Shown here: piece by piece, positions 9,007 through 64,000 of the stretch
Numbering within the stretch: the first letter of the stretch is position 1
How the letters are laid out: every line of letters starts with the position of its first letter
Source of the DNA: Sergeia podlipaevii
Taxonomy: Eukaryota; Euglenozoa; Kinetoplastea; Trypanosomatida; Trypanosomatidae
Direction: 5' to 3'
DNA: 64,000 nt
Assembly: GCA_030849805.1 (NCBI GenBank)
Contig: JASANZ010002269.1
Location: forward strand, 62,001 to 126,000
Notes under the pieces: generated by a model
Told to the model about the DNA's origin: nothing
Database searches by the model: none
Seen by the model: only the letters and a program-made list of their open reading frames with translations
Program-made: the position numbers and the translations under genes

Positions 9007-9087
9007 CCTTTACAGGGGTAGTAGGTCAGCTTTGAATTCTCCTCCCTTCCCCAAGGTGTTCACATTGTTTTGAAAAAGGAAGTGGTA

Positions 9088-12000: not shown

Positions 12001-15000
12001 AATGGCGCTGCGTGCAGCTTCTCTGATTGCACTGTCGATGATGTAGGAACTCACAGTCTCACGCTGGTTGGGGCAGGTGCTGCTCACTTTACCCACTGCG
12101 TGCTGACCAGCTCCTCCGCGTGCGAGGTGCTAGCGGATATGCACTATACACTCCCAATTGTAATGAATAGCGTGCTCGTGCGAAAGCTGAGAAAGTTGCT
12201 TTCAGAGGAGCATGTGCAGCGGACGTTTCGGTCATCGCTTACGAGCACGCACTGCCTCACTGTTTGTCACAGCAACAGCAGTGAAAGAGACGGCCCTGCT
12301 GCGCTGCAGCAAACGCACAAGAAGAAGTTCTCCTCGACATTACCAGGATCAAGCCATGGAATCCGAAGCGGCAGCATGGGCAAGTCGACCGGGTGCACGT
12401 GTCTTGTAGATTGTGTAGTGGGAACTGATAGCACACAGCAGGGTGTTGTGTGCCGAAGTGGATCTGTCTCTTTATCGCACTGCAGGGTAGTAGCTAGTTT
12501 ATCCTGCGACGACAACCCGCGCGCCAACGCACACCCGCGACAAAAATTGAAGCGACGTTTGCATGCAGCAGGTACAGGAGGCCTGCTTTCTGCCGCGTTA
12601 GGAGCGACGCTACCAGGAGCAAGTAGCACTGGTACCTCTACAGTAGCGGCACGACTCTCTATCGGCGCTGCTGGTATCAGCACGCCCAGTGGGGCTCTCA
12701 CTCATACCAGCAGCGCCAGCAGTATGACGTATGATTATAAATACACCGATGGCGCCGCCAACACCGGTGTTGGTGTATACGTGGCAGATGGAGGGCGTCT
12801 GACAATGGATCAATGCCAGGTTGAGGAGTGCGCATTGGCTGCCTACATGGTAGAGCCGCTGGCACAAGCGTCAGTGAGCAACTGCACAGTTGCCAAATGC
12901 AAGGTAGGGCTTCTCTTTATCGCTACTCCATCGATAGCGGCGAGCGCGGCAACTTCGCGTCCACAGAGCGCGAGATTGGTGCCTACATTGAATAAGATTG
13001 ATACATGCCCGTCACGCTTCAGTTCCCTCACAGTGCAGGATTGCACCTTTGCAGCAGCGCACTACTTAACTGGGTCTTGCGCACTCATGGAGTCTTCTCT
13101 GGTACGACGGTGCGAGGTCGGCGTGCGAGGTGATCATGGCGCGACAATACTGATGGTGCGCTCCAAGATTGAGGACTGCCGCAGTCATGGCATCCACTTG
13201 CATGGTCGTCCATCCGCTTATTCACAATTTCACGGCGTACGAGTCTCACTCTGCAGCGGGCATGGCATATGGCAGGACGCTGGTGTTGGTGGCGGCGCTT
13301 TTGCGGTGAAGCCAATCATGAACATAGCCATGCCTTCAGTGTTGGTGTCACCTATGGAAACGCCGACACTGAATGCTTCTCCTTCCGCTGTGCACTCCGT
13401 GCCACCTGCTGCAGCAGCGACCGCACAGTCGCTTCGCCATGACGCATCAATGCCTTCCTTAGATGACGCCATGGCGCAGTGTATATCCTTCCATGGTTGC
13501 GAGGTGTGTGATAATGCAGAGGGCGGCGCTCACCTCGAAGCGGATGTTTGCCTAGCAGACTGTTTGTTTCGCGGGAACGGTGACGTTGGTTTGCACACTG
13601 CAGGATCAGCTGTCTGTGTTATGCTCTATCAATGTCACTTCACCACAGGTGACGATATCACCAGTACTTTCGCAGCAGATGATGTCGTTCCTTCCAGTGA
13701 AGACGGCGTCAGCGTACCAACGCATGATAAGAAGCGAGTTGGTGGATCGTATGGCGAGGTCGTGCACGTGAGAGTGGAAGGTGGTGCCTCTATCGCCCTT
13801 GCGCACTGTGTGACAGAGCGAGGCAGCACTGGGCTCGCCCTTGTTGGCGCCGCAGCGTGTCGTCTAGAACATTGTGTCTTGCAAGGCCACTCTCGAGCTG
13901 CAATCACACTTGCTTTTGGCGGAGCGACACTGGTGATGGTGAGCACCGCCTCTCCATACTCTTACATGACGCCATGGACAGAAGGTGGCAGGGAGACCTC
14001 TGAGGGGAAGGTGGTGGATCCCGTGACGCGGGCGAGCCCCAAGGCCACGATGAACCGCGTTCACTTCTCCCCAAATGATATGAAAGGCTTTGACACACCG
14101 CTACAGGGAATACGGATGACAAGCCCTAGTCCAGGTTTCCCACCACTTCCTATTTCATCTAATATGGCGGTGGACAGTACGCCTTCTGGTCTCGCAGCTG
14201 GAGGCAGTCAAATAGTAACGCATTGCCACTTTCTCAGCACGACATTTGAAGACTGCGCCACTGGACTACTCGTTGAGGAGAAGCCTGGCATGGAAGCCAC
14301 GGGGACTGCGCTAGCTGCTTCGTCCATGATGATGGCGCCACATTTGCCATCCCAACAGGCTACCCCGCTGCTCACTCCTGCTAGCACTACAACAGCAGCA
14401 GGTATACACCGCCGTAGCGTTGCAAGTCGTCCCCCTGCTTTAGTTAGCACCTCATCTGCGTACACCGCCGTGTTTGACCGATGCAGCTTTACCAACTGCT
14501 CCACGTCACATGTGACACTCAAGGAGAGGTGTATATCCGCACTCTTCGCGCGCTGCTTCTTTTCTTGCTCTCCAGTGGCAATCGAGCTGCCGCCAGCGCC
14601 GGTGCTGAATGCTGACCAAGTGAAGATACGACAGTGTGAGTTTCAGGCGTGTGATACGGGTGTGCGTGTGGCCAGTGGAACCCATGTGCGCGTGATGGAA
14701 TGTAACTTTCTTGGAAACAGAGAGTACGCCGTCAGTGTACGTGGAGGCTTTGACGTAGAGCTAGAACGTAATACCTTTAGCGGCCATAGAGGTCCTGCGG
14801 CAGTTCTGCTAGCCCCTAGTATCGCTAGTCTTGAAGTCGGCACGCTCCGAGCTCAGCTCGAAAAAACAAAGCAAAATACATACGCAGCTGTGCGTGAGTG
14901 GCGTGATCGCATTGCAGCTGCTGCATCCTCTTCGCCTCAGTGGGTTGTGATGGGGTGTACTTTCTCTCACGACGCACGTAGTATTGTCGCACTATCCTCC

Positions 15001-17059
15001 GGACACCTGCCCACCGTGATGACGCCTTCACTGATCGTCCGAGACAATCACTTTAGTGGGAGTACCGTCGCGGTCACGTGCAGACAGCTTGAGGCCGATC
15101 GGGAGCTGTGGCAGGCGGAGGTCAGTGCGCTAGCGCCCGTGCCTGTATCAGTACTTCGGGAGGCAGATGGTGATGCTGGTGGGCAGGAAGAGGCGGCGTT
15201 TCAGCGACAGGAGAGAGAAAGCAATATTGACACGGTAGACTCGATGCCTTCTTCTTCTTCCTCTCGGGAGCGGGTCGACCGCTGCAGCACCTCCTCTGGT
15301 GCAGGACTTGTGGATGCTGATGTGGCGCTCCTCGCCAATATCTTCAAGGGCTGCGAGGTTGGCTGCGAGGTGTTGGGGCATGTCAGGCCTCAGCTCTGGC
15401 GCAACCAATTTTATGCTAGTGTACGTGGCGGCCTTGTTGTGTCCGGTGAAGGCGCTCGACCAATTGTGGTGGAGAACTGCTTTGAGGAACATGGCGCGGT
15501 GACACCAAACGCAGAGAGAAAAGACGGGAGAGCAGACCGAAATGCTCTAGAAGTGTTGCTCGACGTTACGGAGGAGACCCTGCGCGTGATGGAGAGGCAG
15601 GCTGCGGTGCGTGTGCGCGATAGCGGTGGTGGCCACTTTTCCTGCAATGTGTGGCGCTGCAATCAAATGGCGTTGTATCTAGACGATGCAGAAGCTTCTT
15701 CGATGCGCAACGCTGTGACGGTCACCGATAACTACTTTCTCTGCAATCGAAATGCGTTGCGTGCTTCTGGCGCGTGCCGTGCAAGAGTGATCAACAATGT
15801 CTTTACTGGTGGCACGCTACATGACGTGAGCCTTTCCACTATTGGAGGCATTGACACGGCTGCGTCGGTGGCGGCTAGTGGTGGGTTCGCTGCCATTGCA
15901 CAGCCTACAGGCGTGTTGCTTGCCTACAATCGCTTTGGGTCCCTCAGCGTGCCTTGCGCGGTGCGCCTACACACAGAAGCGAGCGTATCACTTTACCGTA
16001 ACATTTTCTCCTCGAATGCACACGTTGCGGTATACATCGCGCCGCGCTGTGTTGTCTATGCCAGAGAGTGCCTGTTTTTTGGTGTTGACACCGCACTCCG
16101 CGCTGAGGCCGACGCGCTGTGCCACATTTCTCGATGCAGGTTTGTGCAGCACGCAGAGGCCGCAGTGCTTGCGCATCAAGGAAGTGCCGTGTACGCCACT
16201 CAGTGTGCCTTTGTCGCCTACCCGGATCACCGCACCGTTGTGCACAGCGATGAGTCCAGTGGGTGCTATGAGTACTGCACTTTTTACGCCCCTATGAAGT
16301 GGAGCGGCCCCGCTGACCCTGTGTTTGAAGTCAGTGCAGCGCAGGTGTCTATGCAGTGCTGTTACTTTCAAGGCAAAATGCAAGCATTGCACCTTGAGTC
16401 CAAGAGCGATGCCAGCGTCACTGCGTGTGGCTTTCTCGGTCCCGATGTAGGTGTATTGGTGCGGTCATACAACAAAAATGTGGTGCTTGATCAGAATATC
16501 TTCTGGGCAAACCGTCTGGCCGCAGTACGGCTGATGGAGCAGTGCACAGGTGAGATAAAGGGCAACGCCATGCCGAGCGGGGGTATCGTCGCGTTTGGTG
16601 CACACGCGGTGGAGATAACGAATGAGATAGCACTAGCGCAGTCGCCCTTTAGTGAGCCTACAACAATCACCATTCCAGAAAACGAAGAGTTCGTGCTGCA
16701 GCTGTATGCCGCCGCTGTGGGTGATGCCCCTGCATGGGCTGCCATTGTGGCACCCCCAGCAGCACTTGTTGAAGTTGATGGAGGAGGTCTCACCAGGGAA
16801 GCCTCGGGTCAGGAACAACTCGGGGAAGGAAGCGGGAATGCAGAGGATTGTAATGCAGGAGGCGAAGCTCAAAAGTACTCTGGGAAACAGCAGCGTGAGG
16901 GGCAGCAACGTGGAACAGGAGGCAGCCACGCCTTTGAAAAGCTGCAAGAGGCGTACGGTGGTGAAGCCAGCATGGACGCGTCTCGCAAAGCTGCGGCTAC
17001 GCAGAACGTACTATCTTCCAAGGCGAGCTCTCAGACTGTGATCAACAAGGCAGCAAAGA

Positions 17060-17090
<31 letters not shown>

Positions 17091-20000
17091 GGGTCAGAAA
17101 AAGAAAAATGTGCTGCAGCCCCCGCCCCCACCGCGCGCACGCCTCATCGAGGACACAGAGGCGATAAGAGAAGTAGATGCGGGGGAGCTTCTGCGCCAAG
17201 CGAAGAAGGCACTTGAGCAGCTTCAAGAGTGGCATGAATGCGAAAACGAAGCCTGTGCCACCTACAATCCGCTTCTACCACGTTCTGTTTCTGACAATAG
17301 GAAGAACTCTACAGCGCAGACGCAGGACAATACAACCGAGACTGCAGCTTCACCGAAAGTCGCTGTGATGACTCTCATTGACGCTCTCAGGCAAAGAAGA
17401 AAAAAGCAGCTGGGAGAAGAGAAGAGCACTTTTGGTCACGCACCTCCATCTTCCTCCGTCGCGGTACGCGATGAGTACGAGACATACACCTCGCCATTTT
17501 CTGTTGACCAACAGAGTAGTACCTTTAGAGGCGGCGCCTCCACGCGCAGCGATGTGGCCTCCTCACAGGGATGGGCAATGGGGATGAGCATTAGGAAGCG
17601 TGGCAGCACGCGGCCGATGAGTACGCACACCGCAGAGGATGGAGACAACGCAGGAGAAGGAAGCGGCGGTGGGCCCGCGAGGTCGCAGAAGACGTGGAAT
17701 CCTCACTTCTCCCGCGTCAAAAGGCCCACGGAGTACGCTAGCAGTGCGAGCATCGAGGCAGCTGCGGCGCAGCTAAGCGAGAAGCGGCAGCGGCGAAGAC
17801 GTCATCCACTCCTCAGCACCAATCTTCAGTATCAAGTGTGTGAAATGCAATACTTGAAGCCGCCTCTGAAATCTCTGAGGACCTATGTTCTTCAACGAGA
17901 AAACAAGGTGAACGGTTTTGATATTATTCCCTCCAGCAGCATGCGAGAACGGTTTCCTTCTTACGCAAAGCAACTTTATTTTCTCACGGACAATATTGGA
18001 TTTGATCTCTTTTACGGTGAGTTTTGTCTCAGGACAGAGGAGTACTGCGCGCCATACACGCCCCACTCAACTGTGCCAGAGGAGGAGGAAGCGGAAACCA
18101 AGAGTCAGCACAGTAATGAAAATGAAGCATATCATAACTATGTGGATTGGTCGTGGTTCCAGGGGGGTGACGATGCGCTGGATTCACAAAATAGATCAGG
18201 CGGGCTCTCGCTAGTTTCTCTCTACGCCGTTGAGTGCGAAGATCCGAAGTCGGTCCCCTCCTCACCTCATTCTACAGAGCTTCCTGGTAATAAGGCAGGC
18301 GGCACCAGACGTGTGAGGCGGGTAAGGTCAATGAAATTGGCCTCAAAGACAAGTAGCGGACGTGGTGAGGATACCGTCTCTCCTGCCGCCGTCGACGCCA
18401 TTGACGGGGACGATGCAAAGCGGATTGAAAATCGCGAAAAAGGCATCGAGGGAGGCAAAAACCCTGTAGCCTCCACCGTTCGGAAGAAGGAGAAGAAAAG
18501 TACAGCGGAGGGGTCCAGCAAGAAAGACGGACAAGATGCAAAGACAAAGGGCGAGGCCAACAACAAGAACAAAGACAAGAAGAAGAAGAAGAAGAAAATG
18601 AAGAAGAGACCAAGTTCGTCTGGAACAGATTTGATGCAGCTGCTCCTCGCTGCGCGAAAACGCGCCAGGCCGGAAGAGAAAAGTGTTGCCGCGAATGGAA
18701 AAGGGGTTCTGGCGGGAGAAGAAAGCAACTTGGTACACATCACCATCGACGAAACACCGCTACCTCTCGACAACAGCAGCAGCAAACACAACAAGGAAGC
18801 ACCACTCTCGCTCAATGATCAAATGAAAAAGGGAAAATCCTCGCTTTCATCTGATGTGAGAATGAAGAGTAGGAATGTATCGTCACCGCCCGACGAGAGC
18901 ACGCACATCAGCGAAGCATCCCTTTCGTGCAGCAGTCGAAACCACGTGAGCGAAGCACCGCTGCCACATGATGATCTTAAGCAGGTTCACGAAGTATCAC
19001 TGCTGTTCGATGATAGTGCGCACGCCAGTGAAGCACTACCGCTGTTCAGTAGTCAAAACCACGAAAGCGAGGTACCACCATCATGCACTGCACGGGCACA
19101 CAACAGCGGCGCACTGGTGCCGCCCAATAGCGGAAAACAAGACGGCGGGGAACCAAGAAAGTCGCTGAGCAAGTTCGGTGGCTCTAGCATTCACAATCTC
19201 GCACCTATGCTTCAGAGCGTCACCTCGCTTTTAGAACTGCAGCTGGACGAGAACGCGGCCATCATGGCAAGCCGCGACCATTCCTACCACCACCATCATA
19301 AGAAGCTGAGGAATCAGCAGCGATATCAAATGGAATCCCCTTCTGCGCATAATGAGTCCACCTCCTCCATGGCATTCAATGGCTCTCTGCGGCAGTCACA
19401 TCAGGAGACAGCAGCGTTCAGCTCAACACATCGATCATCCAATTTAGGGCAGAATGACTCCGAGACAGTACGACCATCCCGACGCTCCTCCTTCTTCTCC
19501 TCCATTGGGACCGCTGCCACCTCCGTCAAGCGCGAGAGTTCTGGAAATGCTAGCGTATCTGGGCAGCAGCAACAGACTGACTTCCAGAGAAAGAAGCGCT
19601 CGAAATTCACAGAGGGGCTGCCGCCACTGAGCCCCCACCGCGTTTCCAAGAGGATAGAGAAGTATTCCACATCCCTTTTATCACCGAATGGCATCACAGC
19701 AAATGCGCCACGAGAGCCTTCCACGATCAATGAAGGCATCATCAGCAGTTCTGGCAGTGTCAGCGACAATATTGGCGGCGTTAGTGGCGATGATGATCGG
19801 GGACACGGCAGCGAGAGTGCTGAGCAGCCTACCATCTCGACGACGCTCTCCTTAGAGGAGGACAACTCTTTTCATTCTTCTTGGACTTCTGATCATGTCC
19901 AGGGGTCAGCGCGGTCCCACCTCCCCACAGATCAGCAAGGCACTGCACATGAAGAAGGTAGAGTGGCTACGTCTCCGTTGCCTCAAATGGCGATTTCTGC

Positions 20001-21393
20001 ACTTCGTCGTGCAAATCCGCGCCGCTCCCCTGAGCTTGTCTCACCCTTCGCGGAAGAGTTTGCTCCACCACATACACCGCCGCTGCGACAGCCGTCACAA
20101 GAGCCCACAATGTCTGCAACGTTAAGCAAGTGGCACCAGGAGCGCATGGCGTGGTCTGCAAAACAACGGGAGCTGCAGCAGCAGCAACTGCTCCTCTCCA
20201 GCACAAGCAGCTCTACAATGGCAACGCAGGAACAGTCGCCAGATCACGGAGAAGGACATGGAAGGAAGCTGATGGAGGACGAAGACGTGTTCGGCATGGC
20301 CGACCTGCAGTTTGCGCAGACCCTGGAAGATGTGATTGAAATTCTGCATGAGCTAGCGTGCAAGCGAGCGGAGGCCGGGGGACCTCTGGATACCCACTCC
20401 ATTGAAGCTGTTCTGGATTGTACACATTTGGACTTCTTTGTGCGATCTCGCGTGCACTACAGCTGTGATCACAACAACAGTCGCAGCGGCAGCGCGGCGA
20501 CTACTGCATCGCGCAGTCGCATGAGCACGCGGGATGGCAAGGACCGCAGTAAGACCAGAGGACGACTTGGCGAGGGAGTGCACGTACCTTTCTTGTCAGA
20601 AGTTGTACGCTCCGCCACTGGTGCTGAGCGAGTAGAACAAGGGAAGGAGGATGTGGAGGAAACGGTGGTGTATATTCGGTTGGGAAATGCAAAGGTGAGC
20701 AGCGACCACGACGGGGACAAGGATGCTGTGCGAAGCAAGGCACGTGGTAAGGTGGTGGCACCTTATCTTGCGATCGTCATGCGTGAGGGTCGCATGGAGT
20801 TGAAACTTGCTACTGTGGAGTTGCCGCTTTGGTCTATCTCAGACACTTCCAAGGGACACCGAGCGTGTCAAGGGTACAAAGTGTTGCGTAGTTGCTGCTC
20901 CGCTGCATCATTGCAGCAGTTGTTAGAGCAGCGTCAAGCGGAGCAGGAGTACTCTCCCATTCTGATTCATGGAGATGCTTCAGACAACCTTCAGGGCTCT
21001 CTACCGTATGCGTCACGTACAACAGATGGAGCGCTAGACTTTACACGAGCTGAAAAGAAAACGCCCGTGCCGCCGCGCGCTCTTACGTTTGACGAATTGA
21101 AGGAGCGTCTGGCCGCCAGCACAGCAGCAAACACAGCGGCCGCCGGTAGAGCATCAGCAGCGGCGGTGGTTCATCCTGTCGCAGACAGCGCTGGCGTCTC
21201 TTACGCTTTCATAAAGCAAAATGGGGGACGTCGTGGTCCCGCTGCGCCGTCTCATCGTCCTCTCCATCACTTTAAGCGCCGACCCAAGCCAGCGGCTGCG
21301 GCACCGTTTAACCCTGCAAAGCCTGAAGAAACCACTCCGTTTAGTGAGAGCAGCAGGCCGCTTACGTACACAACCCGCCTTAAGTTAGAGTAA
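9088..21393 (+). CDS. Giant right-handed parallel beta-helix repeat protein
   Basis: The product is 4,101 residues, conceptually intact. About residues 10 to 2,510 consist of dozens of degenerate 20-25-residue coils of the parallel beta-helix (PbH1/CASH) type, with recurring patterns such as xNxFxxN, GIxxx, IxxCxFxxN and rows of Asn, Ser and Cys; they resemble NosD-, FBXO11- or SHCBP1-like beta-helices. No F-box is seen. The rest is mainly low complexity: poly-Gln near 2,660, Lys-rich near 3,165, Ser-rich segments and a ten-unit 13-residue repeat. Short ordered-looking islands lie at about 2,905-2,990 and 3,730-3,960. There is no signal peptide or membrane segment. Family members often bind proteins or glycans, or act as ubiquitin-ligase adaptors; here the role is unknown. 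The frame opens at TTG 9070; the ATG at 9088 is the first in frame. Confidence 0.85.
17061..17091 (+). repeat. CAA/CAG run encoding poly-Gln
   Basis: A mixed CAG/CAA trinucleotide run encodes about ten consecutive Gln near residue 2,660 of the giant beta-helix protein, just after the beta-helix region ends. It is likely a disordered linker. Confidence 0.85.
18748..19137 (+). repeat. Ten-unit 39-bp tandem coding repeat (13 residues per unit)
   Basis: Units start at 18748, 18787, 18826, 18865, 18904, 18943, 18982, 19021, 19060 and 19099 with no length change. The consensus is roughly His-x-Ser-Glu-Ala-x-Leu followed by six variable residues; clear units include HVSEAPLPHDDLK, HASEALPLFSSQN and HNKEAPLSLNDQM. 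Some units (second and third) are strongly decayed, but the phase holds. The repeat lies in the disordered C-terminal third of the giant beta-helix protein. Confidence 0.8.
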
Positions 21394-53282: not shown

Positions 53283-56200
53283 ATGAGTGCACAAGCTTCT
53301 TCACCGGACCTCAAGTCCAAAAAGCGTGTGGCAGCAGCGCTCCATAATACCACCGAGGTCGCTCTCTTACGCACGCACTATTACAAATGGCTCGACTTTA
53401 TAAAGCGAAGACGACTTCACACACATCTGCAGCGGTGCTCAGTGAGCCTCAAGCACAACAATATGCGGCGTAGCTACTCTCGCGTGTTTATGCAATGGCT
53501 CTCGTGCACGCAGCGAAACGCTTCTCAGCAGGCACGAGAGGGCATAGTACTACGCAAGGACGTGCCGCTTCGCACGAAAAGTGACACGATAGCGGTGGTA
53601 CATCGCTACTTTCGTAAGTGGCGCTTGCACTTGCGGTATCGCAAACAGCGCACTATTGCCAACGTCGGCGCGCTCGAGAGAGCCAACACGCATCGTGTGA
53701 GACAAGGTGCATTTCACACGTGGCGCACTCACCTACTTACCAAGAAAGTAGAGGAACTGTCTAAAATAAACGCTAGAGAAGAGGAAGTGCAGGAGCTGCG
53801 TGGTGCAGCACTACGAGCCATTGAGGCCTTTGGAGGCTCGAACAAGCCACGAGATGCCATCCTTGCAGAAACGAAAGAGGATACCCCTGAGAGACTAGCA
53901 GGAAACACAAAACTTATCGGAGACGAACTCCGCAACTTGAGTGAGGATATGGTGGTGGTGCTTGTCCTGACATCAATGTGGTCTAGCGAAGGCGCGGATG
54001 AGCACGTCAGTGACATTTTAGAGAAGATGTGGGAGCGCATGAACGCCTCTGAGAAGCAGGCAGCCGAGGCGATGGAGGCAGTGGAGATGACGGACTGCGT
54101 GATGAAGGCCGCCCTTCAGGCACTGGAAGGTCTCTGCGTAGCCGCAACCTCTCTTAGTGGAAGTGGTGGTGCTCCTTGTGCGCCTGTTTCTTCTTCCTCG
54201 GCATTCTCTGCGAAGCATGAGGATGATAAGATGGAAGCAGCGCGCGCTCGAGCGCTAAAGGCGGTCCAGGAAAGTGGCAATGACACCCCACTTCGTCTTC
54301 TAGATCAGTGTGCAGAGGTGAAGGAGCTGCTACCGCGTATTCGACAGAAGGAAACCGAGTTGCTGCGTAGTGCCGCGGCCTTTGGCGTAGTAGCGCTGGG
54401 TGGAACGAAAGGTCTTCAAGCAGTTGAAGCGAATGCGGCAATTCCAGATGATACGGCAGAAGAAACAGCTGCAAAAGGAGCTAATATTGCGGAAATGTTA
54501 ATTGACTTGTGTAAAGCTGTGGAGCCGGTGGCTGTGCCCTGTGCTTTGGAGAAAAGTAGGCATGACGGTTGGGGCGAGGATTTCATTCCACCACTGGTTG
54601 AGCGGCTCACAGCACTGCAAAGACAGTCTGAGACGCTTGAAAACGAAAATGCCCGCATGCAACAGCAACTGCAAGACCGCGACGCAGCTATAAAGGAACT
54701 CCAGGTGCAAGGAGAGAAACTGCAGAAGGATTTAAATCAACTGGAGGAGCGGCGAGCAGCAGAGAAGCACAATTTAGAAATGGACGTGGCGGCGCTGGAT
54801 AAGAGTAACAAGGACCTTCAGCAAGAAGTGTGGGATGCGGAGGCGCGACAGCGCGCGCAGGAGGAGGCACTTGCAAGACACATGCAAGACTCCCTGTTGA
54901 AGGTGGACAAACTTGAGAAACAAATTGCCGAGGAGCGGGCTCACCAGGCTGAAGCCATCGCACGCATCATGAAGGCACTTGATCAGTTGCGTGAGGCCGC
55001 GCGCGCCACCGCTGCAAAGCTTTGTGGTGCGCAGACGTTGAACCTCAAGTCTAGCTTGAACTTAGGCTCACCGGTCCCCTTCTCTGAAGCTGAGGGAGAA
55101 GGGGGAGTGGAAGCAAAGGGTTCTGTCGACCCTCAGTTCGTCCTTTTGAGCACAAGTGATGCCACTCCCTCCTCCTCCTCCTGTCCACTGCTCACAGAGC
55201 GGGAAGAAATGGCGGAAGCACTACAAAGGGCACAGGAGTTCCTCGCTGCCGCTCTCAAGGGGGTAGATCTTGATAAGATACCTGTGCTGGAGGCAATCGA
55301 CGCGATGAAGGCGGAGGCACGCACTATGGTGAAGGAGAATGACACCCTGCATGAGCATATCAAGAACATGAGTGTACTGAATGAAGCCCTGCATGACGTA
55401 CTGGGAACCGTTTTAGTCATGTTGCAGACTCCCAGTGCAGTGGACGAGGCTGCCGTGGCTGAGGTTGCAGCCAAGGCCCAGAGTCTGTCTGAGCACGGCC
55501 GCGCTACCCCCTTGAATGTGCTCACAGCTGTCAATACCCTTCGCTTGCAAAGCGTGGAGAGCTCCTCGCAGCTATCTGACGGTGTATTGCAAGCGGACCA
55601 GACGCCACTGTCGTCTGCAGAGCTTCTCAAGTTGTATACCGACCTTTTCTCCAAGACAACGACGCAGCTGCATGAACGCACAGCGGACAGCTCACGCTAC
55701 CAAGCCCTTAGTGTTTTCCTGCGAGACATCATCCGCGATAGTATTGCAAGGCTAAGATTGGTGACCTCCTGCCACTCCCCCTCCGTTGGGAGCACTCCGC
55801 TATCTTCTCGGGCCTCGCTCACACTAGCATGTCATCCGCCACCACTGCTGCGAGGCGAAGACCCTTCCCTTTACGTGGAGTACATCCTGAAACTCGAGAA
55901 CAGCCCAGCTGAAAGCAAGCGTGCTGTTCAAGACCACCTTAGCCACGACTCTGCCCTAGAAAGCCACGATGAGGCTTCAGCGCCCTCAACGTGGGAAGTG
56001 GTTGCTGAGTACCACGACCGTCTCGCGCTTCTTATGGAGGTGCTTGCGCAGTACGACGAGGCGCTCTGTGAAGAGAAGGATCACACGGATCAGATCACCA
56101 CTGAGAACGCACAACTGCGAATGGACAGCAAGAACGCCTTGGCGGTGCTACAGGGGTGGTGTGGTACAGTATCAGGAGGAGGGAGAGGCAAAACGCCAGC

Positions 56201-58838
56201 TGCGAAGGAAGTACTGAATCCTACTCAACCCCCATCTGTGGCCAGCGGAGACGACGAGGCGGATGGGGGAGATCTCCTGCCGCTTGTGGAGGAAGTCCGC
56301 CGCACCCTTGCGGGGATCAAGAACGTGGCCGAGGAGAGCGTCAACCCGTTGGCGAGTACAGGGGCCAGCACTGTATCGCAGCCAGATAGTGGCCTCGACT
56401 CTACTCTGACGGCGTCCTCTAAGATACACATTACCGACCTTCCGACGCTGCTAACCACTGTAGAGACAATGGCGAGGAAGTTGCAAGAGTTCCGAGGGAG
56501 CGTGGCCGATGGCATTACTGCGCTTGGCGGGCAGCGGATAGATCCTAAAGTAGTAGGTGGAGTCGTTGCTGCTGGTGGTGCAGAGGATGGCACACCGGCG
56601 GCGGTGGCGGTGGTGGACGTTGATACAGCAATTGGCAGGCACCTTTCATCCATGTGTCAAGAGGTGGGGGATTCTATTCAGGAGGTGAAGAGGATGCTTG
56701 GCATTGAGGATGAAGAGCCGCGCCCGACCGCTGCTGATGCGGCTGCAGCAACGACGGCACCGAAGTCGGTGACGCTTCGCAGCATATTGCCTGCTATCAA
56801 GTTTAAGATTACCGAGCTGGAGGAGATGCGGCATGAGTCAGAGAGGCTGCTCAAAGGCCTGGATCACGCCTTTAACGACGATGCCGACTCCCTCAACAGC
56901 TCCTGCGCCTCTATCTTTACAATTGGACGCACTCTGAAGCCGAAGAAGAAGCCTTTTCCCGCCCTCGAGTCGAACCCGGGGAGCGAGATGATGTCCCTCT
57001 CTCACTCCGGCATACTTAACAAGAAACCGCGCCGTGAAGTGTTGACGACGACGCAAGGTCCTGTTTCAGTGGAAGCGCGCATGCGGGCTCTTCGCGCTAG
57101 TGCCCGCGGCAAGCTCGATGAAGTGCACGATCTTCGGCAGACGTGTCGGCTTGCGATCAACGTGATAGAAGGCACCTTTGTAAAAGGCGCTAAACCCCCG
57201 GCGTACGGCGAAGCGCTTGTACCACTTCTCATTACTCAGATTGAAGAAATCAAGCAAGCACTTCCCGAGGCTGAGGCTGCCCTAGCGGCATTCTCTTTTG
57301 ATCCAAACGACAAGAACTCCACAAGCGGCAATGCGACGACACCACCAAGCGCTATCACGGTTGGCACACGCCTCGCCACTCTCGCCAAAGCCTTGCAGTC
57401 TCTTGTGATCGAGCGCGATAGCCTGCAAGAGGCCCTGGATGGAAAAGCACGGCAGAGCAATATGATTTTGGAAAACTTGAATACCACTACTGCCACCCTC
57501 AACAGCCGTATTGATGGCCACCGTGCAGAAATTGAGAAGTTGACGGAGAAGTGTAGGGAGGTCGGCAAGCAACTCGCAGAGGAGCAGGAGACAGTGGCGC
57601 GGCTACAGTTCCAGCGGGAGCAGATGGCAGCTGAGAAGAAGGAAACTGAAGCGGCACTGGTGCAGGCGCGCACACGGGCAGATGGGATGGAGGCGAGGTT
57701 CATCACTTCTGTGAATGAAAAGAAGCAGCTGGAAGGCATGGCAGAGCAACTGGGTCGGGAAATCAACGTGATGGCCACCTCGCTTGCAAGAGCTCTTGTC
57801 GCGCTCCCCGGTTGCATAGAGACCACCACCACCACCATCAATACCTCCTCCTCTGCAGTGCCAAAGTTACAGCGCGGCCGCAGCGTAGGAGGAGAAGGCC
57901 AGCCGACTAAGGCGCCACAGAGCCGATCAGAAGAAGGAGAGAAAGGAGCACAGAGGGGGAGGGCAACCGAAGGAGAGGTGAAAAATGCGTTGATTGCGCA
58001 ACTTCATGCTGATCTTAAGGGGGAAGCGCTGGCAACACTAGTAACGGAAAGAGTTGCACAAGGCCGTGCCCTGGTACGTCGTTCCTGGGCTGATCAGCAG
58101 CACCTTCTCTCCAGCCTCCGCGCTGATCTTGAAGCACTGAAGGACTATGTGCGTAATGCCTACGTGACAGAGATGGAGCCTATCTGTCGCGCTGTGCTAC
58201 TCGAGGTCTGTGGTGAAGATACTGAGAACCTGCGCGTGGAGAATGAATTCTTGCGCACCCGCGCGCTGCAGCGAGAGGCATTCGCACGTGACAACAAGGC
58301 ACTTCAACGCTCTCTCGAGGTGGCCACAGCGCAGGTAGAGGCGATGGACGAAGAGAACATTGCACTGCGTCGCTCGCTCGCGGAAATGCAGGTTGCGCAG
58401 ACTCTTGAGCGGACAGCACCAGAACTAGGGAATAACGATGCTGCATCCGCGCGCTGCAAGGCTGCGGAGGCTGCGCTGGCGAAGGTGGAGCGCCGCATGA
58501 TCCAGAGAGCCACCGCACTCACTACAGAAGCCATTGTATCTATTTCTGGCGAGGAGCTCACGCGTGTGTTTGGTGTCACAGCGGAGCACACGCTTGAGCT
58601 ATACTCCCGTGTGCGCCAGTCTGTGGAGGAACTGTGCCGCGCGTACAACACTCTCAGTAGCGAGACGACAAGAAGTGTTGTGGCGCCTCCGCCGACGACC
58701 TCTCAGAGGCGGTTTGCTACTTCGCTGGATACTCAAATGCAGGAGCTGCGGCGCATGGTTGATGAAGCCGATAAGCTTTGGCAGTGCATTCCCCCTCTTC
58801 TCCGTGCTCCGTACAGCGCACGCTCTCTTGCCGTCTGA
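53283..58838 (+). CDS. Large coiled-coil protein with N-terminal Sfi1-like repeats
   Basis: The product is 1,851 residues. Residues about 30-160 hold four copies of an aromatic-x-x-Trp motif in basic helices (HYYKWLDFIKRR, VFMQWLSCTQR, YFRKWRLHLRY, AFHTWRTHLL), like the centrin-binding repeats of Sfi1 proteins. The rest is largely alpha-helical. Strong heptad coiled coils lie at about 450-580 and 1,390-1,500, and again near 1,640-1,700. Between them are Ala/Leu-rich helical modules that recur with similar phrases (for example ALRAIEAFGG, AALQALEGL, ARALKAVQESG, FGVVALGGTKG), suggesting degenerate internal repeats. There are no membrane segments. A basal-body, flagellar or other microtubule-associated structural role fits the architecture but is inference. 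Confidence 0.8.
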   Translation: MSAQASSPDLKSKKRVAAALHNTTEVALLRTHYYKWLDFIKRRRLHTHLQRCSVSLKHNNMRRSYSRVFMQWLSCTQRNASQQAREGIVLRKDVPLRTKSDTIAVVHRYFRKWRLHLRYRKQRTIANVGALERANTHRVRQGAFHTWRTHLLTKKVEELSKINAREEEVQELRGAALRAIEAFGGSNKPRDAILAETKEDTPERLAGNTKLIGDELRNLSEDMVVVLVLTSMWSSEGADEHVSDILEKMWERMNASEKQAAEAMEAVEMTDCVMKAALQALEGLCVAATSLSGSGGAPCAPVSSSSAFSAKHEDDKMEAARARALKAVQESGNDTPLRLLDQCAEVKELLPRIRQKETELLRSAAAFGVVALGGTKGLQAVEANAAIPDDTAEETAAKGANIAEMLIDLCKAVEPVAVPCALEKSRHDGWGEDFIPPLVERLTALQRQSETLENENARMQQQLQDRDAAIKELQVQGEKLQKDLNQLEERRAAEKHNLEMDVAALDKSNKDLQQEVWDAEARQRAQEEALARHMQDSLLKVDKLEKQIAEERAHQAEAIARIMKALDQLREAARATAAKLCGAQTLNLKSSLNLGSPVPFSEAEGEGGVEAKGSVDPQFVLLSTSDATPSSSSCPLLTEREEMAEALQRAQEFLAAALKGVDLDKIPVLEAIDAMKAEARTMVKENDTLHEHIKNMSVLNEALHDVLGTVLVMLQTPSAVDEAAVAEVAAKAQSLSEHGRATPLNVLTAVNTLRLQSVESSSQLSDGVLQADQTPLSSAELLKLYTDLFSKTTTQLHERTADSSRYQALSVFLRDIIRDSIARLRLVTSCHSPSVGSTPLSSRASLTLACHPPPLLRGEDPSLYVEYILKLENSPAESKRAVQDHLSHDSALESHDEASAPSTWEVVAEYHDRLALLMEVLAQYDEALCEEKDHTDQITTENAQLRMDSKNALAVLQGWCGTVSGGGRGKTPAAKEVLNPTQPPSVASGDDEADGGDLLPLVEEVRRTLAGIKNVAEESVNPLASTGASTVSQPDSGLDSTLTASSKIHITDLPTLLTTVETMARKLQEFRGSVADGITALGGQRIDPKVVGGVVAAGGAEDGTPAAVAVVDVDTAIGRHLSSMCQEVGDSIQEVKRMLGIEDEEPRPTAADAAAATTAPKSVTLRSILPAIKFKITELEEMRHESERLLKGLDHAFNDDADSLNSSCASIFTIGRTLKPKKKPFPALESNPGSEMMSLSHSGILNKKPRREVLTTTQGPVSVEARMRALRASARGKLDEVHDLRQTCRLAINVIEGTFVKGAKPPAYGEALVPLLITQIEEIKQALPEAEAALAAFSFDPNDKNSTSGNATTPPSAITVGTRLATLAKALQSLVIERDSLQEALDGKARQSNMILENLNTTTATLNSRIDGHRAEIEKLTEKCREVGKQLAEEQETVARLQFQREQMAAEKKETEAALVQARTRADGMEARFITSVNEKKQLEGMAEQLGREINVMATSLARALVALPGCIETTTTTINTSSSAVPKLQRGRSVGGEGQPTKAPQSRSEEGEKGAQRGRATEGEVKNALIAQLHADLKGEALATLVTERVAQGRALVRRSWADQQHLLSSLRADLEALKDYVRNAYVTEMEPICRAVLLEVCGEDTENLRVENEFLRTRALQREAFARDNKALQRSLEVATAQVEAMDEENIALRRSLAEMQVAQTLERTAPELGNNDAASARCKAAEAALAKVERRMIQRATALTTEAIVSISGEELTRVFGVTAEHTLELYSRVRQSVEELCRAYNTLSSETTRSVVAPPPTTSQRRFATSLDTQMQELRRMVDEADKLWQCIPPLLRAPYSARSLAV

Positions 58839-59647
58839 GCAAATGTTTTTTTTTGTGTGTGTGTGTGTGTTTGTCTGCGTGTCTGCCTGAGTCCTTTCTT
58901 CTGGCTTGCTTTCCATCTAACCTTTCGAAGAAAGAAGGATAACTTTGTCTGTATCAGTTCAACATATTTGTGTAACAATACTTCTCGATGCCCCTTTTGA
59001 GTGGAGGCAATATTCTTTTTCTTGCTCTAAAGAAGAGGAGCTTTGAGTGCTTTGACCTTGGCTATCTTAGCATTTATCTCCATTATGGTTTCTTCTTTGG
59101 TTAATATATTTTTTTTTTACGTTGTTGATTCAATCTATATATCTCGTACGTTATTGTGCGTGTATGTGCATGTGTGTGTGTGTGTGTGTGTGTGTGTTCG
59201 CAGCTAGTGGCACCAGTGGGTTATTTTTTTTCAATCGTATATCTGTATATTTACTATTACTATTACCGTATTTTTTTTTCTCTCTCTCAAGGTATCGTGT
59301 TTATCAAAATATCATTTAAATCTTCTAGAGTATTATGGTGCATATTTGCATTTTATTTATATAGTTATATCCTATATTGTTACGATGGTATATGTATGGT
59401 TTCTTCTTCTTCTTTTTTCACTATTCCTTGCTCTGTTCTACCCACTTTTGTCTGTCCGCTTTTTTTTTTTTTTTGAAAAGGAAACGTGCACAACATTTAG
59501 CATCTTCAACGGAAAAAAGGCATCTGTACAACGTCATCACATTTTTTTTAAAGTGAGGAAGGTCATTGTGTCTTTCATCCATTGAGGCATCTTTTTTTTC
59601 TTCTCTTTATTTATATTTTGAAAGCGTGCATTTTGTATTAGGCACTC
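58839..59647. other. Intergenic region, no gene seen
   Basis: It contains GT repeats (about 58854-58872 and 59168-59197), T-rich spacer and poly-T at 59461-59474. No RNA gene was recognised. Confidence 0.7.
59623..59624 (+). promoter_or_regulatory. Candidate spliced-leader acceptor for the DNA ligase IV gene
   Basis: An AG follows a T/C-rich tract (about 59591-59619), 24 nt before the ATG at 59648. Confidence 0.45.
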
Positions 59648-62600
59648 ATGAATGAAGGCAATACTGCGCTATCAAAAGACTTTGCATCTCCCTTCCAAAC
59701 TTGGAAGGGCACTGTGGGTGATGGCAGCACTACTCATAGCACGAGTCTCGTCGATGCTCCAAGAGCCTTGCAATTGATTTCACAACAAGAACAACAACAA
59801 CAACAACACTCTGGGCCGACACCATTGCAGTACCCGTTCATGCGCATATGTCAACTCTTTGAAAAAATACTGATCTCTGTGAGCAAGGCGCAGCAGTATG
59901 CGTATCTGGATATCTTTTGGAAAAGTCTACCGCGTGACTGTTCCTTCTTCCCATACATGCGCCTGCTCATCCCCCAGCTTGACAACGTGCGGCCAATGTT
60001 CCAGCTCAAGGAAAGTAAACTGGCGAAGCTCTACGTGGAGATTATGGGACTCTCTGGTCGCAGTCAAGACGCACAGCGCCTCTTACACTGGAAGGATCCC
60101 TCCAAGAGCGTTATTGAGACCACGTGCTTCAGTGATGTGATATACGTCATCCTCCAGCACAAGGGAGGGTTTAATCGTTTTGGGCAACGCTCTGCTGTCA
60201 CTTCCAAACGAGAGCGTGTTGATGGGAACGCTAGCAGTAGCGACAATATCAGCAACAATGATAGCAGCGCTTCAGGCTTTCTTTCCGTGGACGGGGTCAA
60301 CACTGCGCTTGACCGGCTCGCAGAGGCGCCGAGCACGGCAGTTCGCAAGGCCATTCTTCTTGATCTCCTCCGTCGCACCACAGCCCTTGAACAAAAGTGG
60401 CTACTGCGCATTATTCTTAAAGACATGAAGTTCCGCATGACGCACCAGTCCATTCTTTTCGCCTTTCACCCAAACGCACTGGACATGCACAACAGCACGT
60501 GTGACCTGCAATATGTCTGTGATACCTGTCTAGCCGAGATGAACACCCCAGTACCAGGGTCGGTGGCGAGTGGTATTTTTCTGTTCCAGCCACTGCGTCC
60601 TATGCTTGCAAGTCCAGTCTCGGCGCGGCGCCTTGAGCAGCTCCTTGCGTGTGATAAGATTATGTTAGAGCCCAAGTACGACGGAGAGCGAGTCATGATT
60701 CACGTGGACGCAGAGAAGGTGATGTACTGGACTAGGAACGCGAAGAACTTCTCTTCCTTGTACGGCCCTAAGTTTGATGACATGGTGCGGAAAGCATTTG
60801 CTGTGGGCAAACGCTGTGATATTCCAGGGTGGACGGAGCACCATCGCTCGTCCACTTTATCACAAGTCACGATGGATAATATCATTATTGATGGAGAGTT
60901 ACTTGTGTTCGATGGCGCGGCGAATTGTTTTGTGGGATTTGGTATGAACAGGGCCTTCGCCACCGCTGGCGAGGCCTCCCTCAGCGGGGGCGGCGATGTG
61001 GATGGCGTGCAACGTTGGTTCAGCTTTATCGCATTTGATATTGTGCTATTGAATGGGAAGTCGCTCATGCACTTACCGCTCGTGACGCGCCGAGCCCTCA
61101 TGAAGCGCGTCTTCACAGAAGAGAAGAACCACTTTGAGATTGTGCGTTCTGAACAAGTCCGCACAACGGCAGAGATCCTCTCAGGACTTGAGCAGGCCAT
61201 CGCAGATAAGAAAGAAGGCATTATTCTCAAAATGGGTGACAGTCCGTACGTGCCAGCGGAGCGAAAGCAACGCTGGGTGAAGATCAAGACAGACCACATC
61301 GCCGGTCTCGCTGACGCGGTGGACCTTGTTGTGGTGGGTGGATACTATGGCACCAAATTCGGCCAGCGACATATCTCTCACTTCTTGCTCGCTGCGTGGG
61401 TCAATGGGTCGTCAGCAACGCCAACGGATGCGGAGGCATTGTTTCATACCGTCTGTAAAGTTGGTAACGGGTACACGAGTGAAGAGTTGAACCTCATCAA
61501 CACGAATCTGCAGCCACATTGGGAGTCTATGCCGACGCGGCAGACGATTCCTGCATGGCTCGATGGGTGGAAGCCTCTTGGAAGCGACTTGACCCCTGAC
61601 GTTTACGTACACCCGCGTAACTCCCTTGTACTCGAAGTGTTTGGGTACTCGTTCACAGAGACGAACAACTATCGTGTTGGGTACACAATCCGCTTTCCCC
61701 GCATGTTGCATATTCGCTGGGATAAGTCACTTCAAGACGCCACGGACCTATGCACGTTGGCGGCCATACGGGACGCCTCACAAGACACGATACGACGCAA
61801 AGTGGCGGAAGGGAAAGATGAGCTGGTGACCGCGATGGCGCTCAAGTGGCGTCGCAGGCGAGATGGAGTAGCTGGGAAGATGGAAGGAGAAGGAGGCACT
61901 TTGGTCAAGGAGGAAGGGGACAACAACGATGGCGCCACCACCGCACTCCCGCCACGCACCATTGCCATGAGCGACGAGCAACTTGCTGTAGCTACTCTCA
62001 AGTCTTCCTCGGAAATCATTGATCACATTTTTGCCGGATACGAGTTTTGTGTTCTCTTTACAGCCTCTCAGTCCTGCCGTGATCGGGGCAGCGGCAGCAG
62101 TGTTGACGCTGCCACCGTGACGCGCAGCAAGACCTCCATTGAGCGCTTCCTGCTGCAGCATGGTGCCCAGGTAGTAGCCAATCCAGGCTCTCGTACCTCC
62201 CTCCTTCTGGCTTCCACCAAAGCGGCCCCCAAGGTGAGGAACTGGGTACGCATGTGCGAGAACAAGCCTGAGCAAGTACTCAAGAAGTATGCTGCCACCG
62301 ATGTCGCACACTGCGACTGGGCTCTGGACTGCGTAGAGGCTAGCACCGTGCTACCCTTGGCACCGAGAAACATGCTCTACAGCAGCCCCTCTCTGTGTGC
62401 AAAGTTCGACCTTGTGCTAGACCCTTTTGAAGACCACTACTATGAGCCTTGCACTTTGGAAAGCCTGCGGCACTCACTGAAGTTGGCGCGTAAGGCGGTG
62501 GTGAAACAAGAGGAGGAAGAGGAAGCAAAGGTGTTTTCTGCGATAAAGAGACGGAGAACAGAACAGGGGAAGACCTCCCGCACCCAAGGCGGTGACGAGG

Positions 62601-63226
62601 GAGCTTTCCCTGGAGATGGTCACCGCTCACTAGTGGCGGTTTCAACGTCTGTTTACGAAGGCAGGCACCGCCTTGGTCTCCTTCCGAGCACCGCAGTCCC
62701 TATTGCAGCCATCTCATGGACTCTGTTTGCCCCTCTCACAGGGCCTACTGAAGGTACTGCTACCATCACGCAGCTAGGCAGCATCATTACAACAACAGCA
62801 GCAGCAGCACAGTCACCATCTCTCTCCAACGCAGTGGCTGCTGCCTGGCTTGCAGCACGCCCGTCTGCCACTATGCTGCGCCTCATCGATGAGGAAAAGC
62901 AGGAGGTAGAGAAACAACGAAAGCGGCGACAAGGACAACGCGTGGCGAAAGGCGAAGAGAAGAAGATGGATATGATGAAACGGTCTGCCAGTAGTAGTGA
63001 AATTGGGGAGGCGACGGCACGTGAAACCACACGCAAAGCCGCGTTGCTTCCTTCTGACAGTTTATTTAGGGTACTGCCCAGCCCCCAAGAATGGACGTCC
63101 ATGCAGTTGGTGACGATTGCGAACTACATTGTAGAGGACGGCTGCTGCGTGGTGTCTGAGAGTGCGGAGGCGCGCATTTTCATAGATCCTGAAGGTCGTT
63201 CGTGGAGAAGAGATGTAGGTGCTTGA
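59648..63226 (+). CDS. LIG4: DNA ligase IV (ATP-dependent, non-homologous end joining)
   Basis: The product is 1,192 residues (human LIG4 is 911). The N-terminal DNA-binding domain has LIG4-specific stretches: FFPYMRLLIPQLD and KLAKLYVEIMGL at about 100-135, and ALEQKWLLRIILKDMKF near 250. The catalytic core is complete: Lys343 in KYDGER takes the AMP, then the TRNAKNF motif, IIDGELLVFD, FIAFDIVLLNGKSL, EGIILKM and WVKIKTDHIAGL, followed by the LIG4-like VVGGYYGTKFGQRHISHFL in the OB-fold. A BRCT domain follows (about 785-905). Next comes a segment near 920-945 (DPFEDHYYEPCTLESL) resembling the clasp that binds XRCC4. The second BRCT (about 1,000-1,190) is divergent and interrupted by low-complexity inserts. 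This domain order separates it from DNA ligase I, which has no BRCT domains. The frame is intact. Confidence 0.93.
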   Translation: MNEGNTALSKDFASPFQTWKGTVGDGSTTHSTSLVDAPRALQLISQQEQQQQQHSGPTPLQYPFMRICQLFEKILISVSKAQQYAYLDIFWKSLPRDCSFFPYMRLLIPQLDNVRPMFQLKESKLAKLYVEIMGLSGRSQDAQRLLHWKDPSKSVIETTCFSDVIYVILQHKGGFNRFGQRSAVTSKRERVDGNASSSDNISNNDSSASGFLSVDGVNTALDRLAEAPSTAVRKAILLDLLRRTTALEQKWLLRIILKDMKFRMTHQSILFAFHPNALDMHNSTCDLQYVCDTCLAEMNTPVPGSVASGIFLFQPLRPMLASPVSARRLEQLLACDKIMLEPKYDGERVMIHVDAEKVMYWTRNAKNFSSLYGPKFDDMVRKAFAVGKRCDIPGWTEHHRSSTLSQVTMDNIIIDGELLVFDGAANCFVGFGMNRAFATAGEASLSGGGDVDGVQRWFSFIAFDIVLLNGKSLMHLPLVTRRALMKRVFTEEKNHFEIVRSEQVRTTAEILSGLEQAIADKKEGIILKMGDSPYVPAERKQRWVKIKTDHIAGLADAVDLVVVGGYYGTKFGQRHISHFLLAAWVNGSSATPTDAEALFHTVCKVGNGYTSEELNLINTNLQPHWESMPTRQTIPAWLDGWKPLGSDLTPDVYVHPRNSLVLEVFGYSFTETNNYRVGYTIRFPRMLHIRWDKSLQDATDLCTLAAIRDASQDTIRRKVAEGKDELVTAMALKWRRRRDGVAGKMEGEGGTLVKEEGDNNDGATTALPPRTIAMSDEQLAVATLKSSSEIIDHIFAGYEFCVLFTASQSCRDRGSGSSVDAATVTRSKTSIERFLLQHGAQVVANPGSRTSLLLASTKAAPKVRNWVRMCENKPEQVLKKYAATDVAHCDWALDCVEASTVLPLAPRNMLYSSPSLCAKFDLVLDPFEDHYYEPCTLESLRHSLKLARKAVVKQEEEEEAKVFSAIKRRRTEQGKTSRTQGGDEGAFPGDGHRSLVAVSTSVYEGRHRLGLLPSTAVPIAAISWTLFAPLTGPTEGTATITQLGSIITTTAAAAQSPSLSNAVAAAWLAARPSATMLRLIDEEKQEVEKQRKRRQGQRVAKGEEKKMDMMKRSASSSEIGEATARETTRKAALLPSDSLFRVLPSPQEWTSMQLVTIANYIVEDGCCVVSESAEARIFIDPEGRSWRRDVGA

Positions 63227-63652: not shown

Positions 63653-64000
63653 ATGGCAAGTCATATGTGTGACCAGTGTGACCTCGGCTGCCATGGCAAG
63701 GCCGGTGTTGCGGATATCGAAGACGCCAAGGCACAACAGGGTCAATTCCACTACTCCTCTATCTTCCAGCCCACCGACCCCAAGCACGAGAACTATCAGT
63801 ACTACACGGTCCCTGGAAGCGAGAAGTACGTGGAGGAAGTGGAAGTGTTCGGCAAGAAGGTTCTCAAGGTGGACCCCGAGGCACTCACCGTGCTCGCGCA
63901 CGACGCTTTTGCTGACGTGCATCACTTCTTCCGCAAGGAGCAGCTCGAAGGATGGGCTCGCATTTTGAAGGATCCCGAGGCCTCTGAAAACGAGAGATTT
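63653..64000 (+). CDS. FH: Fumarate hydratase, class I (iron-sulfur), N-terminal part
   Basis: The first 116 codons run off the window's end in an open frame. The sequence (DFHYSS-like QFHYSSIFQPTDP, then YTVPGSEKYVEEVEVFG and ALTVLAHDAFADVHHFF) matches the N-terminal part of class I fumarases of trypanosomatids, the Fe-S enzymes that interconvert fumarate and malate. The start (MASHMCDQCDLGCH...) lacks a mitochondrial presequence, which suggests the cytosolic isoform rather than the mitochondrial one. A second ATG 12 nt downstream is an alternative start. The catalytic Fe-S ligands lie beyond the window. Here CDS coordinates give only the visible part. Confidence 0.88.
   Translation, partial: MASHMCDQCDLGCHGKAGVADIEDAKAQQGQFHYSSIFQPTDPKHENYQYYTVPGSEKYVEEVEVFGKKVLKVDPEALTVLAHDAFADVHHFFRKEQLEGWARILKDPEASENERF

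Follow-up and report, generated by a model that had tools for sequence, protein, structure and literature searches.

Does any trypanosomatid possess a DNA ligase IV (LIG4) and, if so, was the gene kept by descent or regained? The published answer to the first part is negative. As far as the accessible portions of the papers cited here go, Nenarokova et al. (2019) found all examined trypanosomatid species to be without Lig4 and to have kept both Ku proteins, the sole exception being the 'jaculum' lineage, in which Ku has been lost too (PMC6635534). No functional classical end joining is reported for Leishmania (PMC9241504). The question is raised by a stretch of 64,000 nucleotides from Sergeia podlipaevii (contig JASANZ010002269.1 of assembly GCA_030849805.1, positions 62,001 to 126,000 of the forward strand; hereafter the window), in which positions 59648-63226 of the plus strand encode an intact DNA ligase IV. 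A preliminary description of this DNA had recognised the gene and noted that surveys of Trypanosoma brucei and Leishmania report Ku70/Ku80 but no recognisable ligase IV or XRCC4, a background repeated in a review of 2025, which describes T. cruzi, T. brucei and Leishmania as possessing Ku and lacking Lig4 (PMC12578213). No earlier record of a trypanosomatid LIG4 came to light in the partly accessible open-licence literature, although such reports may exist. Taken together, the evidence makes it very probable that the gene is an inherited trypanosomatid orthologue of LIG4 which probably takes part in classical end joining, and which has been lost separately elsewhere, including the line leading to Leishmania.

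The gene consists of a single uninterrupted frame of 1192 residues starting with ATG. Three Pfam families match above their cut-offs: DNA_ligase_A_N (8.1e-25), covering the N-terminal DNA-binding domain (residues 63-274, positions 59834-60469), DNA_ligase_A_M (PF01068, 1.9e-36), covering the nucleotidyltransferase domain (residues 318-547, 60599-61288), and DNA_ligase_A_C (PF04679, 3.1e-9), covering the OB-fold (residues 574-693, 61367-61726). All features of the gene lie on the plus strand. The KYDGER motif starts at residue 343 and WVKIK at residue 543; from motif position and alignment, K343 (codon 60674-60676) is predicted to be the adenylated lysine. K343, D345, G346, R348, E417, E523, K545 and K547 do not vary among the 20 LIG4 sequences aligned, so that the ligase core has the elements of a DNA ligase IV: the N-terminal DNA-binding domain, the KxDG lysine and the motifs as far as KxK. 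It is followed by a first BRCT domain (BRCT1, about residues 797-911, 62036-62380) and an equivalent of the XRCC4-interacting region (XIR; about residues 923-973, 62414-62566), both with limits set by eye. A polypyrimidine tract upstream of the ATG (59590-59608, plus strand) would fit a kinetoplastid trans-splicing site; three more tracts of this kind occur in the 460 bases that were scanned.

BRCT1 was recognised by alignment, by profile and by hhalign. Pfam BRCT models score nothing on the window protein alone, even at E values up to 1, and its own match to 3ii6 is weak (E 0.00095). A profile built from 12 kinetoplastid-like sequences matches BRCT1 and XIR of LIG4 in 3ii6 (E 5.7e-16, chain residues 6-144) and also the LIG4 chain 2e2w. 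In hhalign, BRCT1 of the window type aligned to BRCT1 of four other euglenozoan-type sequences with a probability of 99.9, and residues G839, N845 and W891 are invariant in the aligned LIG4s. The XIR equivalent reads LDPFEDHYYEPCTLESLRHS... and then continues as a long helix, which the structure model predicts at residues 937-973. Its aspartates D925 and D929 are invariant (20/20 aligned LIG4s), and a simple pattern of the motif is present in 21 of 22 scanned proteins, P0018 being the sole miss. At the level of sequence, then, a XIR appears to be present. A profile including animal and plant sequences matches the XRCC4-bound peptide 1ik9 (9.7e-6); 1ik9 was not among the matches of the kinetoplastid-only profile at E 0.1. 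The order DNA-binding domain, nucleotidyltransferase, OB-fold, BRCT1 and XIR, the catalytic motifs and the best sequence match are those of eukaryotic LIG4/Dnl4. The window protein differs from these in that no second BRCT domain (BRCT2) is recognisable and that XIR is followed by some 200 residues of low conservation and a short conserved motif at the end. The claims of the preliminary description, namely a full-length DNA ligase IV with a LIG4-type DNA-binding domain, intact nucleotidyltransferase motifs from Lys343 in KYDGER through WVKIK, an OB-fold and at least one C-terminal BRCT, are all borne out.

Could the protein be another ATP-dependent ligase? In a phmmer search of PDB, LIG4 chains, which we take to be human, ranked first (2.4e-83), with LIG3 at 6.5e-33 and LIG1 at 6.8e-28 at best. 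The predicted structure, of moderate quality (mean predicted local distance difference test score, pLDDT, 68.2; predicted template modelling score, pTM, 0.44), also matches LIG4 best, with LIG1 a close second by virtue of the shared core. In a quick tree of 63 rows LIG3 (26 rows) and LIG4 (36 rows) formed separate clades, each with a support of 100 in the SH-like approximate likelihood ratio test (SH-aLRT), and the window protein fell in LIG4; this tree carries SH-aLRT values only, is rooted on the assembly's own LIG1 on a long branch and has P0034 joined to P0035. Sequence searches and tree agree that the protein is nearer to LIG4 than to LIG1 or LIG3, and the PDB ranking together with the separate LIG4 clade rules out the latter two identities. 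The ligase phylogeny proposed in the preliminary description was made here with LIG1, LIG3 and LIG4 rows, the kinetoplast ligases (LIG k alpha and LIG k beta) being left out; both the position in the LIG4 clade and the best sequence matches argue against a kinetoplast-ligase identity.

A search of the assembly (23.39 Mb, 576 contigs) with LIG4 as query gave a single LIG4-like match, together with one LIG3-type and one LIG1-type protein. The LIG1-type protein (L010, 764 residues) shares the ATP-dependent ligase core with the window protein but differs in that Pfam finds no BRCT in it, and in the tree it is the long-branch outgroup. The LIG3-type protein (1285 residues, L009:781-4638 on contig C214) belongs to the same enzyme superfamily as the window protein but to the other of the two clades, and it represents a second BRCT-bearing ligase of this genome, its BRCT matches being weak (Pfam 18.4 and 17.7 bits, under the cut-off). 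Its relatives include proteins of Leptomonas pyrrhocoris, L. seymouri and Bodo saltans, and no row visibly named Trypanosoma or Leishmania occurred among the best 120 of 1300 rows; LIG3 may therefore also be patchy in trypanosomatids.

Before conclusions are drawn from the gene, its native origin has to be considered, since the contig might stem from another eukaryote in the culture. One observation does speak for contamination and against our reading: the spliced-leader exon pattern used for the search was not found in the assembly. Spliced-leader arrays are, however, often missing from short-read assemblies, or the pattern may be ill-suited to this species. The LIG4 contig (C570) spans 151 kb. 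Codon use of LIG4 resembles that of its neighbours (r 0.92 with the averaged codon use of 13 further open reading frames (ORFs) of the window), and all 14 listed ORFs of at least 374 residues lie on one strand. Immediately downstream, a fumarate hydratase gene starts at 63653 (63653-64000 on the plus strand, continuing beyond the end of the window; 571 residues in L006), whose product matches PDB fumarate hydratase 2, presumably the Leishmania major enzyme, with 1052.7 bits. In a midpoint-rooted tree, Ku80 of the same assembly, which is encoded on a different contig, groups with named trypanosomatids (98/99); it shares an unresolved region with Angomonas, Phytomonas and Trypanosoma and lies outside the Leishmaniinae rows. 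Finally, LIG4 itself sits in a trypanosomatid clade, as described below. Because of the Ku80 placement, the codon use and the fumarate hydratase neighbour we reject contamination, which we regard as extremely improbable.

The preliminary description had left undecided whether LIG4 was kept or regained in this lineage. A mixture-model tree of 27 rows places the window protein in a clade of six (100/100) with P0001, P0002, P0003, P0004 and Novymonas esmeraldas (P0005). P0001 is its nearest row; the order inside the clade is partly supported (80-89 bootstrap), the pair of P0004 and Novymonas having 100 and being sister to the remaining four. This clade is nested in a kinetoplastid-like clade of 13 rows (100/99), in which the other seven rows, bodonid-type to judge from their position, are its sister group (92/89). 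Outside the 13 rows follow five rows which appear to be diplonemid-like (94/95 for the join) and then a row labelled EG_transcript, which we take to be Euglena. Some caution is needed in reading this tree: no single branch separates the three outgroup rows from the rest, P0027 and P0032 have long branches, and the composition of several rows, including Novymonas, is odd. In approximately unbiased (AU) tests, for groups picked after the tree had been seen, a grouping of the window protein with three animal-type rows, namely P0029 (Alosa), P0021 (Caerostris) and P0020, which groups with them, was rejected (p 1.5e-13), as was a grouping with the five diplonemid-like rows (p 3e-8).

Because the trypanosomatid clade lies within the kinetoplastid-like clade, LIG4 seems to have been kept by descent, and we favour retention in this lineage over late gain. 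Of the two options originally offered, 'kept' agrees with a tree that follows euglenozoan relationships where the rows can be named, and with the AU tests; 'regained' does not. If LIG4 had been lost in the trypanosomatid ancestor and regained laterally from a free-living kinetoplastid, its patchy distribution among named trypanosomatids would be accounted for. The six trypanosomatid rows nevertheless form one clade sister to the other kinetoplastid-like rows and not inside them, with Novymonas and P0004 branching apart from the other four, which makes such a regain most unlikely. Any transfer would moreover predate the split of the sampled trypanosomatids, and would amount to retention.

How widely, then, is LIG4 distributed in trypanosomatids? 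It is not peculiar to this genome, although its presence in this kinetoplastid lineage holds as originally proposed. A LIG4 search returned 51 rows from a database in which about a quarter of the proteins are named and in which scoring was confined to the 8000 candidates with the most words in common. One of these rows is named Novymonas esmeraldas and annotated 'DNA ligase-like protein'; it is 42% identical to the window protein over 1192 columns. Another, P0002, is probably Angomonas deanei and is 54% identical over 900 columns. Both share the architecture of the window protein and differ from it in lineage, P0001 being nearer. None of the 51 rows is visibly named Trypanosoma, Leishmania, Porcisia, Leptomonas, Lotmaria, Crithidia or Phytomonas. 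In the same database a Ku80 search returned 26 rows, among them five Trypanosoma, two Leishmania and one each of Porcisia, Leptomonas, Lotmaria and Phytomonas, with no row named Crithidia. The absence of LIG4 from the named genera is thus strongly suggested, though not absolute.

It might be argued that LIG4 is ordinary in trypanosomatids and has been overlooked through poor annotation alone. The label of the Novymonas copy would fit this, as would the facts that 'DNA ligase' occurs nowhere in the main text of the Novymonas genome paper and that most database proteins are nameless and the names given are truncated. The genera named among the 26 Ku80 rows are, however, visibly named in none of the 51 LIG4 rows, and work on Leishmania reports no functional classical end joining in the portions available (PMC9241504). 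We consider this explanation improbable. LIG4 looks patchy rather than ordinary, and its distribution points to repeated loss. The backbone of the Ku80 tree is unresolved. Counted by hand on this tree, and with LIG4 permitted to be lost but never gained, three or more losses are required to account for the named absences, or four if Trypanosoma and Phytomonas represent separate lines, as they are taken to be here. Novymonas is reported to be the sister lineage of Leishmania, Porcisia and Endotrypanum (PMC8406214), so the loss in the Leishmania line would have followed its split from Novymonas. The DNA-PKcs-binding domain of Ku80 does not track LIG4, since PF08785 is listed for five of five Trypanosoma and both named Leishmania Ku80 rows. 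We note in passing that Novymonas and Angomonas, the LIG4 bearers that could be named or inferred, both carry bacterial endosymbionts (PMC8022732, PMC8406214); this co-occurrence may be chance.

The presence of a ligase IV leads to the question of whether its partners are encoded as well. A Ku-family search of the assembly gave two matches, both of them intact frames. Ku80 (763 residues) contains Ku_N, Ku and Ku_PK_bind, all above cut-off (Ku_PK_bind 5.2e-20). Ku70 (917 residues) contains Ku_N, Ku and Ku_C above cut-off; its SAP-like tail (12.7 bits) stays under cut-off, as does its match to the NCBIfam ku70 model (151 bits, cut-off 194.25). DNA-PKcs is encoded on contig C487 (L012:5931 to L013:8728) in one intact frame of about 4265 codons, with PF20500, PF08163 and PF19704 (DNA-PKcs_N, CC3 and CC5), PI3_PI4_kinase and FATC above their cut-offs; its kinase end matches PDB DNA-PKcs at 1.2e-61 versus 2.8e-36 for mTOR. 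Among other eukaryotes, DNA-PKcs is present in animals and absent in yeast. Published accounts differ: according to the accessible part of one review most kinetoplastids are apparently without DNA-PKcs, but Leishmania and further Leishmaniinae have a putative one (PMC8377203), whereas in another paper, likewise available in part, it is absent in Leishmania too (PMC9241504). The frame described here occurs in a genome outside the Leishmaniinae rows, and among kinetoplastids the available part of the review names the kinase only in Leishmaniinae (PMC8377203). The window ligase is thus ordinary in kind, and it is its presence together with a full DNA-PK that contradicts the published generalisation that trypanosomatids lack Lig4, which needs revising.

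These components suggest the following pathway. LIG4, inherited from a euglenozoan ancestor, would have been kept under purifying selection. Ku70/Ku80 would load on a broken chromosome end, and the C-terminal domain of Ku80 would recruit DNA-PKcs. An XRCC4-like partner, which we infer, would carry LIG4 by gripping its BRCT1-XIR segment, and LIG4 would seal the ends by adenylation of K343, transfer of adenosine monophosphate (AMP) to the 5' phosphate and closure of the nick. Later, several trypanosomatid lines would each have lost LIG4 on their own, among them that of Leishmania once it had separated from Novymonas. The argument for a partner comes from the pattern of conservation. Identity between the window protein and P0001 amounts to 429/665 aligned residues for the core and 96/152 for BRCT1 and XIR, compared with 31/91 for the linker and 19/84 for the tail. 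A segment conserved about as well as the core while linker and tail drift argues for a protein bound there.

Several observations weigh against this reading. In the other comparisons BRCT1 and XIR, though well above the linker, are somewhat less conserved than the core: 85/153 versus 386/648 for P0002, 85/150 versus 398/677 for P0003 and 74/160 versus 361/675 for Novymonas. BRCT2, which clamps XRCC4 in animals, is not recognisable in the window protein by profile or by hhalign. Of the partners for which the preliminary description proposed a search, Ku70 and Ku80 are present, but Pfam found neither XRCC4 (PF06632) nor XLF (PF09302) in the assembly; as no control genome matched either model, this miss says little. 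XRCC4 is moreover fast-evolving, so that a Pfam miss is weak evidence. XRCC4_CC (PF21924) matched frames of 2131 and 686 residues with 24.2 and 17.1 bits, below the cut-off of 27 bits; 576 residues of the shorter frame were inspected and look like coiled coil by eye. These frames were not accepted as XRCC4 because of their scores and because the model also matched in the Bacillus subtilis control. Finally, trypanosomatids without LIG4 keep Ku, and Leishmania also has a putative DNA-PKcs, according to the accessible part of the review (PMC8377203); the co-presence of these genes is therefore in itself no proof of end joining.

The same observations could mean that a true LIG4 is uncoupled from classical end joining and has some other task, for example in maintaining telomeres, in sealing nicks as a back-up or in a microhomology route, Ku and DNA-PKcs being otherwise employed. 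The failure to find XRCC4 and XLF, the lack of a recognisable BRCT2 and the retention of Ku and a putative DNA-PKcs in Leishmania would all agree with this, as would the LIG3 of this genome, LIG3 being an alternative end-joining ligase in animals. The near core-like conservation of BRCT1 and XIR in a drifting C-terminus would nevertheless be hard to explain without a partner, and the missing XRCC4 match counts for little. Uncoupling is thus a less likely explanation, though one to be taken seriously. The classical pathway favoured in the preliminary description stands as regards the genes for LIG4, Ku70, Ku80 and DNA-PKcs; in these cells it would work with an XRCC4-like partner that has escaped recognition.

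Extended to the whole group, the data make it rather likely that the last common trypanosomatid ancestor had a full pathway of animal type, with DNA-PK (Ku70, Ku80 and DNA-PKcs), LIG4 with an XRCC4-like partner, and LIG3 in addition, that the pathway is still used in several genera, and that LIG4 was lost separately in Trypanosoma, Leishmania-Porcisia, Leptomonas/Lotmaria and Phytomonas. If this is true, the loss in Leishmania happened only once Novymonas had diverged, and the Ku and putative DNA-PKcs that Leishmania still has are recent remnants. Loss of classical end joining has been treated as a general trypanosomatid trait and used to explain features of genome and repair. If LIG4 has a patchy distribution and occurs in Novymonas, the sister of the Leishmania clade, which is described as tractable by CRISPR (PMC8406214), close relatives can be compared to learn what loss of the pathway does, and the puzzling retention of Ku in the absence of Lig4 turns into a question about losses that were recent and repeated.

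Some minor features remain to be mentioned. The LIG4 proteins of trypanosomatids (P0001-P0005 and the window protein, about residues 1146-1190, 63083-63217 on the plus strand) end, past a long drifting linker, in a conserved motif W...Q ... then V..xx.A..xxDxxG, in alignment with the place where other LIG4s have BRCT2. The structure model shows a helix at 1151-1164 and two short strands there (pLDDT about 71-78), behind a low-confidence linker. It was tempting by eye to see half a BRCT2 in this helix and two strands, but hhalign did not support this, giving probabilities of 0.6 and 0.5, whereas the controls, BRCT1 aligned to BRCT1 and BRCT1 aligned to BRCT2, reached 99.9 and 95.0 respectively. 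The motif is perhaps what remains of BRCT2; three of the 12 kinetoplastid-like rows (P0009-P0011) terminate shortly past XIR.

Upstream of LIG4 lies an ORF of 1851 residues (53283-58838, plus strand), which has no Pfam family at E 0.001 and looks like coiled coil by eye. Further upstream on the plus strand, an ORF of 1591 residues (587-5362) carries AAA_11/AAA_12 helicase domains, presumably of the Upf1/Sen1-type superfamily, and one of 4107 residues (9070-21393) contains five right-handed beta-helix stretches (PF13229, 1.5e-84) and is possibly a very large surface or secreted protein. Elsewhere in the assembly (C236:10527-13293; L016, L017) two Pol X palm domains occur about 2 kb apart in separate frames, open for 984 and 383 codons. 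They possibly represent Pol beta-PAK and Pol beta, a neighbouring pair of Pol X genes being an arrangement known from trypanosomes.

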